64,000 nt of DNA. Origin: Prochlorococcus marinus XMU1419 (GTDB lineage: Bacteria > Cyanobacteriota > Cyanobacteriia > PCC-6307 > Cyanobiaceae). The notes under the pieces are model-generated. The model saw only the letters and a list, made by a program, of their open reading frames with translations, searched no databases and was not told the DNA's origin. Location: the NCBI RefSeq assembly GCF_017695955.1, contig NZ_JAAORO010000002.1:124001-188000 (forward strand), given 5' to 3'. A program made the position numbers and the translations under genes. Positions 51,060-55,802 of the stretch are shown here, piece after piece (position 1 is the stretch's first letter; every line of letters begins with the position of its first letter).

Positions 51060-53093
51060 ATGGTTCATTCTATACACCCAAGAACTATTCAAGAGGTTAA
51101 GGAAAAAGCAGATATTGTTGACGTTATATCTGAACATATTGTTCTTAAGAAGAAAGGCAAGGAATTTGTTGGGATTTGCCCTTTTCATGATGATACTAAG
51201 CCATCTATGACGGTATCACCTAGTAAACAATTCTATTATTGTTTTTCTTGTGGTGCTGGTGGTAACTCTATTAAATTTTTAATGGAATTTACTCGTGCAA
51301 ATTTTTCAGATGTTGTACTTTCTCTCGCTAAAAAAAATAATATAAATGTTGAAAATCTCGAGGGTCCCCAATTAGAAGCTTATAAAAAACAATTATCTAG
51401 AAAGGAAGAGCTTTATAAAATATTAAGAGTTACTAAAAATTGGTTTAAGTCTCAATTAAATAATTCTCTTGGTGTTGAAGCTATGAAATATTTAACATCA
51501 AAGAGAAACTTGAGTAACAAGATTATTGATAACTTTGAATTAGGTTTTGCCCCAAATTCATGGAATGATTTATTTGAATATCTATCCAAGGTAGAAAAAT
51601 TTCCTATCAATTTAATATTAGCTTCCGGTCTTGCAATATCTAAAGATAATTCTGACAAGATTTATGATCGTTTTAGAAATAGATTAATTGTTCCAATTCA
51701 TGATATGCAGGGAAGAGTAGTTGCTTTTGGAGGAAGATCTCTTGATGCTCAGGAACCTAAATACCTGAATTCTCCTGAATCAGAGATATTTGAAAAGGGC
51801 AAAATGTTGTTTGCATTTGAAAAAGCTTCTAGCAATATTAGGAAAAGAGATAAAGCTATTATTGTTGAAGGATACTTTGATGTAATTTCTCTTCATGCAA
51901 AAGGTATTAATAATTCTGTAGCTTCCCTTGGTACTGCATTAAATAAGTATCAAATTTCTCAACTTTGTAGATGTACAGATAATAAAAATATAATTTTGAA
52001 TTTTGATTCTGATAATGCAGGAATTTTAGCTACAAAAAGAGTAATTAAAGAAGTCGAGAGTCTATCCATTCATGATCAAATTAATCTTAAGATACTTCAA
52101 CTAAGTGATTTTAAAGATCCTGACGAATATTTAAATAGTCATACTCCTGAAGATTATTTTAATTTGATTGATAATTCATCCTTTTGGATTGATTGGGAGA
52201 TTGATCAGATCTTTAAAGATAAAGATTTAACTAAGTCAGAAATTTTCCAGAGTGTTATTTCTTCATTGGTAAAATTGCTGAGTAAATTACCTCAATCATC
52301 AACCAGGACTCATTACCTACAAAAAGTTTCCGAACGATTAAGTAAGGGTCAAGCCAGGTTAGCTATACAGTTTGAACAAGATTTAAGAAATCAAGTTAAG
52401 GGATTTCGTTGGCATGGTAGATCAAAAAAATTTGAACAACCAAATGAAATTTCTCGTCGTGAGAAAAATGAATCGGAAATAATCTTTTATTATTTGCATT
52501 GTCCTGATCTTAGACTCTTTATTCGTGATGAATTTCTTAAAAGAGAAATTAATGGTTTTAATACTAAATATATTCAAAATTTATGGGAATCTATTTCAAC
52601 AATTGAACAAAATAATTTGGGTTTAAATTATTTAAATGAATTAAAACAAACAAATAATCAAATTCTTCAAAAAGATCTTTCTGCTATTAATCTAATTTCA
52701 CTTTTGCCTGACTACTTAGCTATTAATAATCCGGAATCATCAAATAAAATTAATATTTTTGTTAATCCAAATGAGTTGTACTTAACATTGCTTAGTAATC
52801 CTAAAGACAATTTACTTGGAACTTTATCACTTCTTGAAAAATATAATTCTCTAAAAAGATGTAGACACTTGATCGAATCTTGGGGATCTCAAAGATTAAA
52901 AACCTTAGAAAACTGTATATCCATCTTAATTGATAATTCATCTTCAAGTTCCTCAAATACAAATAAAGAAATAGATGATCTTTTTAAGGATTTAAACTCA
53001 GATGCCATTAAATTTCAGGAATTATATTACTTAGAAAGACAACATATAAATTTTTTAGACAAACAACGTTGTGGCAATTTCATCGCTAGTTAA
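51060..53093 (+). CDS. dnaG: DNA primase
   Basis: A 677-residue primase. The N-terminal CHC2 zinc finger (ICPFHDDTKPSMTVS and YYCFSCGAGG), the RNA polymerase core (NRLIVPIHDMQGRVVAFGGR) and the TOPRIM domain (AIIVEGYFDVISLHAKG, with NFDSDNAG) are in order. The C-terminal part should contact the replicative helicase. It is convergent to the HExxH gene. Confidence 0.97.
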   Translation: MVHSIHPRTIQEVKEKADIVDVISEHIVLKKKGKEFVGICPFHDDTKPSMTVSPSKQFYYCFSCGAGGNSIKFLMEFTRANFSDVVLSLAKKNNINVENLEGPQLEAYKKQLSRKEELYKILRVTKNWFKSQLNNSLGVEAMKYLTSKRNLSNKIIDNFELGFAPNSWNDLFEYLSKVEKFPINLILASGLAISKDNSDKIYDRFRNRLIVPIHDMQGRVVAFGGRSLDAQEPKYLNSPESEIFEKGKMLFAFEKASSNIRKRDKAIIVEGYFDVISLHAKGINNSVASLGTALNKYQISQLCRCTDNKNIILNFDSDNAGILATKRVIKEVESLSIHDQINLKILQLSDFKDPDEYLNSHTPEDYFNLIDNSSFWIDWEIDQIFKDKDLTKSEIFQSVISSLVKLLSKLPQSSTRTHYLQKVSERLSKGQARLAIQFEQDLRNQVKGFRWHGRSKKFEQPNEISRREKNESEIIFYYLHCPDLRLFIRDEFLKREINGFNTKYIQNLWESISTIEQNNLGLNYLNELKQTNNQILQKDLSAINLISLLPDYLAINNPESSNKINIFVNPNELYLTLLSNPKDNLLGTLSLLEKYNSLKRCRHLIESWGSQRLKTLENCISILIDNSSSSSSNTNKEIDDLFKDLNSDAIKFQELYYLERQHINFLDKQRCGNFIAS

Positions 53094-53109
53094 TATAAAA
53101 ATTTTTAAT

Positions 53110-53577
53110 TTATAGGCAGTATTTTTTAATCAAGTTTTTAACTTTTTTGGGTTTATCTTCAAGAACATAAGCTTCTACTTCTTTTGCATAAGTACCAGAA
53201 AAATTTGAACTAGAGAACTCTAATGCTTTTCTTTTACTTTGATGCAATTTGCTTTCTAATTTTTTTATATCCCCTACTATTTTATTGTTATTACATTTTT
53301 GTATAGCATGAGCTGCTTCATGTCTTAATGCTTTTCTTATTGCCAATTCTGTTTTGAAGTTATCTTTGTTTGGTCCATGCTTTTTATTTCTATAATTCGT
53401 TTTCCTTTTTGCATTTTCAGTACATATTATTATTTTATTTTCTTCAAAGTTATGTAGTCCTTTTATTTCTTTGTTTAAAAGGCATTCAATTTTATTTTCT
53501 TCAACTATATAGTTTGCTTTTATTAATAAGTCAAGAATTTCTTTATCTAATTTGCTCAAAAATATTATAAATTCCAT
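53110..53577 (-). CDS. Putative zincin-type metalloprotease (HExxH), third gene of the umuDC operon
   Basis: A 155-residue, Lys/Asn-rich soluble protein. Residues 84-94 (LRHEAAHAIQK) carry the HExxH zinc motif (H86, E87, H90), and a possible third ligand is a Glu in KEVEAYVLED (133-141). Three Cys occur (C32, C52, C95). I recognise no family; the pattern is that of small gluzincin peptidases such as the SprT or IrrE/ImmA groups. It starts 10 bp after umuC on the same strand, so it should be expressed with umuD and umuC in the DNA-damage response. Confidence 0.65.
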   Translation of the reverse strand: MEFIIFLSKLDKEILDLLIKANYIVEENKIECLLNKEIKGLHNFEENKIIICTENAKRKTNYRNKKHGPNKDNFKTELAIRKALRHEAAHAIQKCNNNKIVGDIKKLESKLHQSKRKALEFSSSNFSGTYAKEVEAYVLEDKPKKVKNLIKKYCL

Positions 53578-53587
53578 TTAATTTTGT

Positions 53588-54874
53588 TTACTTCACTATA
53601 GTTGGGATTTTTTCTATATCAGTTGTAGATGAGCGACTTAAGAAATTCTTGTTCATAGTCCAACTTTGTGCTTTTTTTGTAATAGCCCATGTAATTGCAT
53701 TGTTATTAAATCTTTTATTTAATAAATCAATAGTTCTCATTAGATTTGCTGATTTTTTCAGGTCTTTCTGAGACTTGTAATTGATAACTGATTGCTGTAA
53801 GTATTCGCTATTAGTTAAATCCTGCATTAAAACACCAGCTTTTGAAAATTTATATTCGGGATTATAAATTTCTTTAGATAATTCAACTACTATTTTTAAA
53901 ATGCTATTTGTGTCGTCTGTTGCATTTGTAAGCTTTCTATGAGCACTTCTTTGATAATTTTGATTTGAATATTTACTGGTTCTGGCAAATACTCTAATAT
54001 CGGATGATTGCAAATTCTGACTTCTCATTTTTTCAGATGCTTTTATTGCGTGAGTCGCCAGTGCTTGAGTTAAGTCTTCTAATTTTGTGACAGGAGTACC
54101 GAAACTCCTGCTCACCTGAATTTCTTTTTTTGATTTCTTGTTTTTTTCTATGGGCAGGCATCTATGGCCTTTCAGTTCTAATTGCAGTCTTTTCCCTACG
54201 ATGCCTAATTTCTTAATGATTTCATTTTCTTCCATATCTCTTAGTTCTCTGGCATTTTTAATACCTTTACTTTGCAACCAATTAGAGGTTTGTTTCCCGA
54301 CTCCCCATATCTTATCTATACTAATTCTTTTTAAATAATTATTCTCATTTTCGGTTCTAGCTAAATCAAATATTCCAGCTGAATAATCAATATTTTTAGC
54401 TAGTTTATTAGCAATTTTTGCTCTTACTTTATTTTCTCCTATTCCTACTGTTATGGTAATCCCTAGATTCTGATATATTAATGATCTTATGCTTCTTGCC
54501 CAAGGATATAGATTTTCATCATTAGGTCTAGAAATTGAGACGAATGCTTCGTCAATAGAATAAATTTCTATCTGTTCACAGTAATTTTTCAGTAAATTCA
54601 TTAGTCTTCTACTCATATCCCCATAAAGCGAGTAGTTTGAGCTTAAGACTGCTACATCTAATTTATTTAGTCTTTCTTTGACCTTAAAATACGGAGTTCC
54701 CATTTTAATTTTTAAAGCTCGCGCTTCAGGGCTTCTTGCAATGATACATCCGTCATTATTAGATAAAATTACTACTGGTTTATTTCTCAAATGAGGATTA
54801 ATATTTTGTTCACATGATGCGTAAAAATTATTAGCATCTATAAGAGCTATTGCATCAATATTTGAAATTTTCAT
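53588..54874 (-). CDS. umuC: Error-prone DNA polymerase V subunit UmuC
   Basis: A 428-residue Y-family polymerase for translesion synthesis. The palm acidic residues are visible: D13 in ALIDANNFYASCE and the Asp-Glu pair in YSIDEAFVSI. GITVTVGIGENKVRAKIA, KIWGVGKQT (helix-hairpin-helix) and the little-finger domain follow. The start overlaps umuD's stop by 4 bp (ATGA). It shows no truncation. Confidence 0.95.
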   Translation of the reverse strand: MKISNIDAIALIDANNFYASCEQNINPHLRNKPVVILSNNDGCIIARSPEARALKIKMGTPYFKVKERLNKLDVAVLSSNYSLYGDMSRRLMNLLKNYCEQIEIYSIDEAFVSISRPNDENLYPWARSIRSLIYQNLGITITVGIGENKVRAKIANKLAKNIDYSAGIFDLARTENENNYLKRISIDKIWGVGKQTSNWLQSKGIKNARELRDMEENEIIKKLGIVGKRLQLELKGHRCLPIEKNKKSKKEIQVSRSFGTPVTKLEDLTQALATHAIKASEKMRSQNLQSSDIRVFARTSKYSNQNYQRSAHRKLTNATDDTNSILKIVVELSKEIYNPEYKFSKAGVLMQDLTNSEYLQQSVINYKSQKDLKKSANLMRTIDLLNKRFNNNAITWAITKKAQSWTMNKNFLSRSSTTDIEKIPTIVK

Positions 54875-55287
54875 AAATAGCTATGTATTGAATAAATAAC
54901 AACTCCCCATATCTGTACATCAATATGGTTTTTAAATCTAAAATCAGGATAATTATGATTTTCTGCTTTTAAATATAATTCATTATTTTTTATAGATAAT
55001 CTTTTTATTGTAAATTCTCCGTCTATCATTGCAATGATGATATTCCCTGGCCTGGCTGTTAAGCTCTTGTCTACTATTATTAAATCTTTATCTTTAATTC
55101 CTGCATTTATCATTGAGTCACCTTTAACTCTAAGAAAAAAAGTGCTAAACGGATTAGATATTAAATGTTCGTTTAAATCAATATTTTCTTCTGTATAGTC
55201 ATCTGCAGGAGAAGGAAACCCTGCTGATACCGAATCAGTTAATAAGGGGATTTTAAATTTTTTAATAGTTGAATCAAAGGAATCCAA
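54871..55287 (-). CDS. umuD: SOS protein UmuD (self-cleaving S24 peptidase)
   Basis: A 138-residue LexA-like protein without a DNA-binding domain. The cleavage site A22-G23 lies in SAGFPSPADDY, the nucleophile is S58 (GDSMI) and the general base is K95 (FTIKRL). After RecA-stimulated self-cleavage, UmuD' should join UmuC as polymerase V. The start is a TTG at 55287. A near-consensus LexA box sits 12 bp upstream. Confidence 0.95.
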   Translation of the reverse strand: MDSFDSTIKKFKIPLLTDSVSAGFPSPADDYTEENIDLNEHLISNPFSTFFLRVKGDSMINAGIKDKDLIIVDKSLTARPGNIIIAMIDGEFTIKRLSIKNNELYLKAENHNYPDFRFKNHIDVQIWGVVIYSIHSYL

Positions 55288-55299
55288 GGTTAAATTAAT

Positions 55300-55313
55300 A
55301 GTATATATGTACT
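55300..55313. promoter_or_regulatory. Candidate LexA (SOS) box upstream of umuD
   Basis: AGTATATATGTACT matches the cyanobacterial LexA consensus RGTACNNNDGTWCB at every specified position but one (T for C at position 5). It lies 12 bp before the umuD start, where a bound repressor would block the operon's promoter. Motif and gene function agree, so I rate this as likely. Confidence 0.7.
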
Positions 55314-55385
55314 ATATAGCAAAAACTCAAAAAATAGTTAGTTATTAAACTTTTATAGATTAATTTTAGATTGAATCTAATCTTT

Positions 55386-55802
55386 TTAAGAACGATGATA
55401 AGGGGAGTTGTTAGATATAGAAATAGCTCTATAGATTTGCTCGATTAGGATTAATCTGGCTAATTCATGAGGAAAAGTTAAAGGAGATAGGCTTAGTACA
55501 AGATCTGATTTTTCTTTTATATCTGAACTAACTCCATCAGTATCACCGATTAAGAAATTAATTTTTTTATTTTTAAAATTCAAGAGTAAGGAACATAGTT
55601 CAACTGAATTAAACTGTTTCCCTTCTTCACTTAGGCAGATAATAATATTGTTATTGGATCTAAGATTATTTAAATTAAAAGTCTTTAACTCATTAATGAC
55701 AAGTTCAGGCATTCTTTTTTTGTATTGATTAATTCCATCTCTAATCCAAAGTTTCTTTATTTTGCCAATAGCATAAATTGCTAATCTATTACTCTGAAGC
55801 AT
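55386..55802 (-). CDS. rlmH: 23S rRNA pseudouridine-1915 N3-methyltransferase RlmH
   Basis: A 138-residue SPOUT-fold methyltransferase that modifies helix 69 of 23S rRNA. The trefoil-knot segments [12 protein letters not shown] and [24 protein letters not shown] and the C-terminal NSPYHR are characteristic. It lies 19 bp downstream of the Asn-rich gene on the same strand. Confidence 0.96.

Follow-up and report, generated by a model that had tools for sequence, protein, structure and literature searches.

Why should a small protein with an HExxH motif be encoded directly behind the two subunits of DNA polymerase V? The question was raised by a 64,000-nucleotide stretch of DNA, analysed as a whole and called the window here. 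Its source is a high-light Prochlorococcus, and the nearest named genome in our scan was Prochlorococcus marinus MIT 9302 (95%). A sequence-only reading of the window had described a minus-strand run of umuD, umuC and the HExxH gene behind a LexA box with one mismatch, 12 bp ahead of umuD. The ORF coordinates bore out this layout: umuD and umuC overlap by 4 bp, the stop codon of umuC is followed after 10 bp by the ATG of the HExxH gene, and the box was found where it had been placed. The features are as follows.

51060-53093, convergent to the HExxH gene: dnaG, name assigned from sequence
53110-53577, minus strand: HExxH gene, third in the run, ATG start, 155 amino acids, most likely a mini-zincin
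53170-53181, minus strand: E133-x-E-A136, with E133 as proposed third zinc ligand (homologue alignment; model helix 130-139)
53308-53322, minus strand: HExxH motif, residues 86-90, kept in 215/215 distinct homologues
53588-54874, minus strand: umuC, Pol V catalytic subunit (Pfam/NCBIfam)
54871-55287, minus strand: umuD, autoproteolytic Pol V subunit, TTG start (Pfam/NCBIfam)
55300-55313, minus strand: LexA box AGTACATATATACT, ending 12 bp before the TTG of umuD
55386-55802, minus strand: rlmH, neighbor on the umuD side, name assigned from sequence

UmuD was confirmed by Peptidase_S24 of Pfam (4.9e-34) and by NF007621 of NCBIfam (163 bits with a cut-off of 110). UmuC showed the Pfam domains IMS (2.4e-39), IMS_C and DUF4113, and scored 333 bits with the NCBIfam UmuC model, below the cut-off of 431. 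Both proteins are typical subunits of Pol V. A search of 53050-55450 revealed no terminator-like site, and promoter-like matches in this interval were at the level of shuffled sequence (14 versus 13.0, sd 4.0). The HExxH gene is under purifying selection with a median dN/dS of 0.18 as compared to 0.14 for umuC (13 genomes, 78 pairs each). We have high confidence in the gene, its place in the run and the fold class described below.

The LexA box AGTACATATATACT deviates at one position from RGTACNNNDGTWCB. A single match of this kind is weak evidence because similar matches are not rare in the genome, which contains 144 with at most one mismatch to AGTACNNNDGTWCB and 280 to a reversed control pattern. 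The box was taken as real because of its conservation across umuD loci. In the window and 20 further loci, picked for spread from 80 umuC-linked rows, about 140 bp upstream of umuD were scanned with start codons estimated by alignment. In 21/21 loci there was a box that deviated at one position at most, and eight of the boxes were perfect. Thus the site seen in the window is kept as expected for a member of the LexA regulon. Among mononucleotide shuffles of the same upstream stretches 0.1% reached zero mismatches and 4.8% one mismatch. Two similar sites, both with one mismatch, also stand in front of lexA in the same genome. In two earlier studies umuC and umuD are predicted LexA targets in 13 cyanobacterial genomes including several Prochlorococcus (PMC3091678), TAGTACA-N2-TGTACTA is given upstream of recA, umuC, umuD and lexA, and the high expression of umuC is said to last longer under UV (PMC2921402). 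The third gene does not appear in those LexA and UV passages of PMC3091678 and PMC2921402.

Linkage of the HExxH gene to umuC proved common across genomes, though not absolute. Among 60 relatives, the genome of the window included, 25 carry the protein and all 25 belong to the same genus; it was absent from 23 genomes of other families of the class (0/23) and from four genomes of the same genus that are at least 92% complete (G002, G003, G024 and G033). umuC lies beside the gene in 24 of the 25 loci, and in the remaining one the gene itself ends at the contig end. Of 300 genomes drawn more widely from the family, 111 had a match to profile A1, which was built from nine host rows and one phage row, and 264 had umuC. 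For the linkage count we used 100 strong homologues (E <= 3.8e-30) and left weaker rows aside. A same-strand umuC adjoins 85 of the 100, the window included; 80 of these have gaps of 8-364 bp and five were added by later inspection. G100 was counted as linked although its umuC consists of two oppositely oriented pieces. Thirteen strong copies are located away from umuC, and two are truncated by contig ends (G242, G175). The neighborhood of umuC and dnaG exists independently of the HExxH gene, since dnaG was found within the fetched stretch at 15 of 20 umuC loci without an adjoining HExxH gene.

The unlinked copies stand behind rplT, near mqo/lepA or in a sugar-transferase neighborhood, and a shorter paralogue is located near secG and groL (neighbors named by eye). 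In a tree of 56 proteins, with an arbitrary root and some inner forks unsettled, the umuC-linked copies and those at rplT and mqo formed one clade (96/89). The position of the rplT and mqo copies in this clade suggests that their ancestor was linked to umuC and that they were relocated later; linkage to umuC is probably the older state here. LexA boxes were looked for at eleven of the unlinked strong copies (L095-L104 and L106, with G087 and G073 left out) and also at L107 and L110. None of the eleven had a box better than shuffles; the best site in the scan had two mismatches (L096) and was matched by 53% of shuffles. Coupling of the gene and umuC in presence and absence is uninformative because umuC is nearly universal (187/197 near-complete genomes). 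Inspection by eye for loss of the UmuC clamp-binding motif revealed no clear pattern in gene-bearing genomes, and a plasmid search gave no match to the protein.

The HExxH protein had no significant match in Pfam or NCBIfam. PHROG 16003, a functionally unannotated phage family, matches it at 1.6e-11 over residues 11-154; the linkage to host Pol V is not part of PHROG 16003. The HExxH protein and its homologues from cyanobacteria and cyanophages form a family for which neither Pfam nor NCBIfam has a model. The sequence-only reading had pointed to LRHEAAHAIQK and a later Glu-rich segment; both are present in the 155-residue protein, the latter as the Glu-containing KEVEAYVLEDKP, and loss of the HExxH motif in homologues, which would have spoken against a peptidase, did not occur. 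The motif was invariant in the 215 distinct homologues examined, which were left from 219 distinct proteins after four had been dropped by length. The ExEA-type motif began with Glu in 211/215 and with Asp in 2/215, two proteins being outside the search pattern; a Cys five residues past the second His was found in 214/215 and a C-terminal aromatic residue or Arg followed by Cys in 213/215. These counts are partly selected for because the set was collected by similarity. Invariant in both alignments A2 and A3 are C32, G40, C52, H86, E87, H90, C95, E140 and C154, among them four conserved cysteines. H112, though frequent among close relatives (A1), lacks conservation in A2, A3 and A4, and no conserved third His follows HExxH in the wide alignments A3 and A4.

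AlphaFold models were obtained for the window protein (pLDDT 88.7, pTM 0.87) and for the phage protein L296 (pLDDT 92.9, pTM 0.88). HExxH is located within model helix 72-95, in agreement with the active-site helix of clan MA(E), and E133 within helix 130-139. Foldseek gave no match in the PDB at E <= 0.001. In the structural comparison the top neighbor was IrrE for both models, 3dti from Deinococcus for the host model (Z 7.1, rmsd 2.1, 79 residues) and 3dte for the phage model (Z 6.5, rmsd 2.3, 77 residues); the tool itself rates Z values below 8 as middling. The predicted fold is thus zincin-like, as suspected from the motif, with IrrE/PprI as its top structural neighbor at middling Z. The next neighbors were mostly zincins, i.e. 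lethal-factor metalloprotease domains, PprI, ArdC and the mini-zincin 3e11. In the host-model list the mini-zincin types 3e11 and 4jiu had Z 5.6 and 4.3, and Wss1 (5ln5) stood further down with Z 4.3 and rmsd 3.6 over 83. From the lethal-factor rows we claim neither kinship nor toxicity; with an rmsd near 4 and 8-15% identity they share the zincin arrangement only. In a comparison with predicted structures of viral proteins, the two models matched best, with E down to 6.6e-6 and 6.2e-7, to uncharacterised proteins, several of them from cyanophages, e.g. S-CBP42, Syn5 and ACG-2014f. Sequence profile searches of the PDB were of no help: one listed PriS primase alone, with E 0.17 at best, and another had no match.

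Weak Pfam matches of family members pointed in the same direction. M76 (ATP23/XRCC6BP1) matched 12/49 members (best 0.0061) and 7/24 (best 0.00091), with the lowest E of 0.00052 on the distant relative L093. The match spans the region up to and including HExxH, and the scores stayed below the PF09768 cut-off of 25.2 bits (20.3 for L093, 16.8 for phage L296); the window protein itself did not match PF09768. SprT-like profiles matched 7/24 members (best 0.011) and 3/49 (best 0.046), and WLM 4/49 (best 0.0094). DUF4344 and DUF6782 also matched weakly, and all weak rows shown with bits were below their cut-offs. A match to Gar1/Naf1 (3/49, best E 0.00078, better than M76 in that set) was dismissed as noise because this is not a peptidase family and did not recur in the 24-member set. 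As the leading structural rows agree in kind and the weak Pfam matches point the same way, the HExxH protein, judged from the models, is most likely a minimal single-domain Glu-zincin. Mini-Glu-zincins are a recognised minimal form according to PMC3890501.

How does the family compare with known zincins? With IrrE/PprI and ImmA (M78, DUF955/PF06114) it has in common HExxH, a conserved later Glu, a predicted zincin core (at middling Z) and a DNA-damage context. It differs from them as a 155-residue single domain with four conserved cysteines and without a match to PF06114, either of the window protein (E <= 10) or in 73 member scans from A3 and A4 (E <= 1). It also lacks the HTH and GAF-like domains of IrrE. 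M76 and our family both have a Cys five residues past the second His and an ExxA motif, and M76 ATP23 is an enzyme of eukaryotic organelles. SprT/SPRTN and Wss1/WLM are alike in HExxH, zincin-like fold and link to DNA damage, but they differ by a conserved third His, and their profiles scored weakly on our family. Membership in SprT/SPRTN (PF10263) and WLM/Wss1 (PF08325) was rejected for lack of the conserved third ligand and because of weak scores, below cut-off in the rows shown with bits; the window sequence reads HEAAHAIQKCN, whereas the WLM/Wss1 motif is of the HExxHxxGxxH type. The mini-zincins (Acel_2062 3e11; abylysin/selecase type) are minimal single-domain zincins and structural neighbors as well, with an Asp as third ligand in Acel_2062. 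We know of no linkage of mini-zincins to a polymerase or a clamp.

The phage relatives have a different neighborhood. A single phage isolate, Synechococcus phage DSL-LC02, matched the window protein. Its gene order is gp45 (DNA polymerase processivity factor, the T4-type sliding clamp), HExxH gene and an AAA ATPase, the probable clamp loader. In this genome the HExxH gene is annotated as a serine hydroxymethyltransferase. With the DSL-LC02 protein as query 51 isolate records matched. In S-SRM01 (two records) the gene stands directly behind a gp45 match annotated as "DNA polymerase", and in SynMITS9220M01 the order is gp45, denV, HExxH gene. The other 47 of the 51 records are distant homologues, 45 from ACG-2014f and two from S-CBP42. 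For either phage a single record was inspected, and in both the gene is located away from gp45. Altogether, the gene occupies the gp45 junction in just 4 of 2299 gp45-matching records, with denV intervening in one; the same junction holds speD in S-RSM4 and is empty in ACG-2014a.

Contigs of uncultured cyanobacterial viruses gave a more uniform result. A scan seeded by the DSL-LC02 protein found 37 loci and a scan with profile A3 found 347 relatives, from which we took the best 80; a scan with profile A1 confirmed no relative. The two sets amount to 116 distinct viral loci with 64 distinct proteins, many of the contigs being near-identical. gp45 lies within 200 bp upstream in 62 of the 63 testable distinct proteins, a figure that applies to the closest relatives because of the restriction to the best 80 of 347. 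No gp45 was seen at L063, and L295, where the locus is cut, was left out. A possible stop-start overlap (TG or TA before the start codon) was observed in 34 of 36 printed gp45 junctions, L056 (gap 145) and L061 (non-ATG) being doubtful. No viral locus examined contained a match to umuC. The linkage of the viral homologues to gp45 is suggestive only because the distant isolate homologues are located elsewhere and because the junction also takes the unrelated speD and denV. It hints at the replication machinery rather than at the SOS response alone. That Pol V operates with the sliding clamp is established knowledge (cf. PMC8147279 and PMC4045847), and the clamp is thus a common denominator of the host and phage contexts. 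The two replication-linked neighborhoods, Pol V in the host and the sliding clamp in the phage, suggestively share a theme.

Taken together we tentatively favor the view, to which we give somewhat less than an even chance, that the HExxH protein is a peptidase induced along with Pol V in the SOS response, and that its substrate is a protein associated with the polymerase or the clamp at the replication machinery. Cleavage of LexA after DNA damage would result in production of the peptidase together with Pol V from a presumed common transcript. The enzyme would be a cytoplasmic zinc peptidase, a Glu-zincin with a single domain, in which H86, H90 and probably E133 would hold the zinc ion and E87 would be the catalytic base. 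By cutting a polymerase- or clamp-associated protein it may cause Pol V to be installed at the clamp or removed from it. The phage relatives would be produced together with the clamp of the phage and would act on the corresponding machinery while the phage replicates. A broader proposal is a replisome metallopeptidase common to hosts and viruses, which, controlled by the SOS response, would cleave a protein bound to the clamp so as to terminate or license synthesis by Pol V, and which T4-like cyanophages would couple translationally to their own clamp, thereby remodelling or taking over replication. This we consider unlikely.

The main rival holds that the link is one of co-regulation only, i.e. 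that a stress housekeeping peptidase borrows the SOS promoter of umuDC, while the phage spot collects auxiliary genes, with no specific relation to polymerase or clamp. It would account for the lack of LexA boxes at the rplT, mqo/lepA and secG-groL copies, for speD and denV at the same phage junction, for the distant phage homologues away from gp45 and for the many distant cyanobacterial relatives, several of them exported-looking. Yet two independent neighborhoods, Pol V and sliding clamp, share a theme, nearly all testable distinct viral-contig proteins, which are the closest relatives, follow gp45 (62/63), and the tree places the copies at rplT and mqo among the umuC-linked ones, where linkage is probably older. 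We regard this explanation as not probable, but as one that has to be taken seriously.

The sequence-only reading had suggested that the protein cuts DNA-bound proteins or a regulator; neither target was supported. A DNA-protein crosslink protease like SprT/SPRTN or Wss1, digesting DNA-trapped proteins to let Pol V pass, would fit the zincin-like fold, the presumed SOS co-regulation, the weak SprT-like and WLM profile matches and the presence of Wss1 among the host-model neighbors (5ln5, Z 4.3). Yet a conserved third His past HExxH is missing from the wide alignments, and 155 residues leave no space for an extra DNA-binding domain, which makes this function quite unlikely. Still less probable is a switch like IrrE/PprI or ImmA that responds to damage by cleaving a repressor or a toxin-like regulator. 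Although IrrE/PprI heads the structural lists of both models and Aravind et al. (PMC3765255) pointed out DUF955 zincin peptidases next to translesion genes of the SOS response, the 73 member scans gave no IrrE/ImmA match in Pfam, the protein has no space for HTH or sensor domains, and in the host loci the gene adjoins umuC and dnaG rather than a gene for a regulator. Lastly, the protein might bind polymerase or clamp as a zinc or cysteine scaffold without catalysis. Such a scaffold would agree with the four cysteines C32, C52, C95 and C154 and the small size, but it would not need the catalytic Glu of HExxH, which is kept in 215/215; we consider it highly improbable.

Pol V is controlled by UmuD autoproteolysis, RecA and ClpXP. 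If the favored polymerase- or clamp-directed peptidase activity is real, a dedicated metallopeptidase in the Pol V operon would be an extra layer of control over mutagenesis in Prochlorococcus, which is among the most abundant photosynthetic organisms. The coupling of the family to phage sliding clamps offers a concrete and testable class of targets, and a replication-associated gene would be common to a host and its viruses. Our data may extend the association of peptidases with SOS polymerases proposed by Aravind et al. to Pol V and to a different, unnamed family, with the phage sliding clamp as an addition. In the literature searched, which covered subscription papers in part, the HExxH gene was not found described.

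Finally, when 290 genomes of the class were scanned with profile A3, relatives turned up in 62. Most cytoplasmic host and phage members have in common an M-[ED]-F-[LI] start followed by hydrophobic residues, which was not seen in the exported-looking distant relatives. By eye, several inspected distant relatives start with signal-peptide-like or lipobox-like sequences, and the genome of the window has a second relative with such a start at C3:25940-26305.

Further LexA-like sites were found on contig C1 of the window's own genome:

C1:318568-318581 (locus L164:1806-2082), the 14-mer AGTACATATATACT, identical to the LexA box of umuD, 14 bp before an 82-aa ORF
C1:321598-321611 (locus L165:1587-1841), the LexA-like site AGTAAATATGTACT, lying at the 5' end inside an ORF of 84 aa when this is read from TTG

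Judged by the sequence preceding it, the 82-aa ORF is a candidate further LexA target. A later ATG start in the 84-aa ORF would put AGTAAATATGTACT upstream of a smaller gene.

The same genome carries a second, distant relative of the HExxH gene that follows umuD-umuC (L365, C3:24500-27800; match at C3:25940-26305). With its motif HExxHxxQxC and a lipobox-like N-terminus (LISC), the encoded protein is probably an exported lipoprotein paralogue. In addition, we observed a broad cyanobacterial family without a name (L354, L356, L359-L361, L363 and L364), in which HExxH is followed by a Cys at a distance of five residues and, further along, by an E-rich motif. The N-termini of several members resemble signal peptides, and the only member scanned against Pfam, L356, gave no match above the cut-off.

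In T4-like cyanophages the gene content at the junction of gp45, the sliding clamp gene, and gp44 was variable:

S-RSM4 (L377:4157-4492), speD
SynMITS9220M01 (L092:4401-5390), denV and the HExxH gene
ACG-2014a (L378:4160), empty

The homologue in cyanophage DSL-LC02 (WJZ48381.1; L026:5001-5411), a zincin-like protein of 136 aa, bears the name serine hydroxymethyltransferase in its record, apparently through misannotation.

Finally, in one same-family genome (G100, L366:3-1007) umuC adjoins the HExxH gene as two pieces in opposite orientations; either the gene is broken or the contig was misassembled here.
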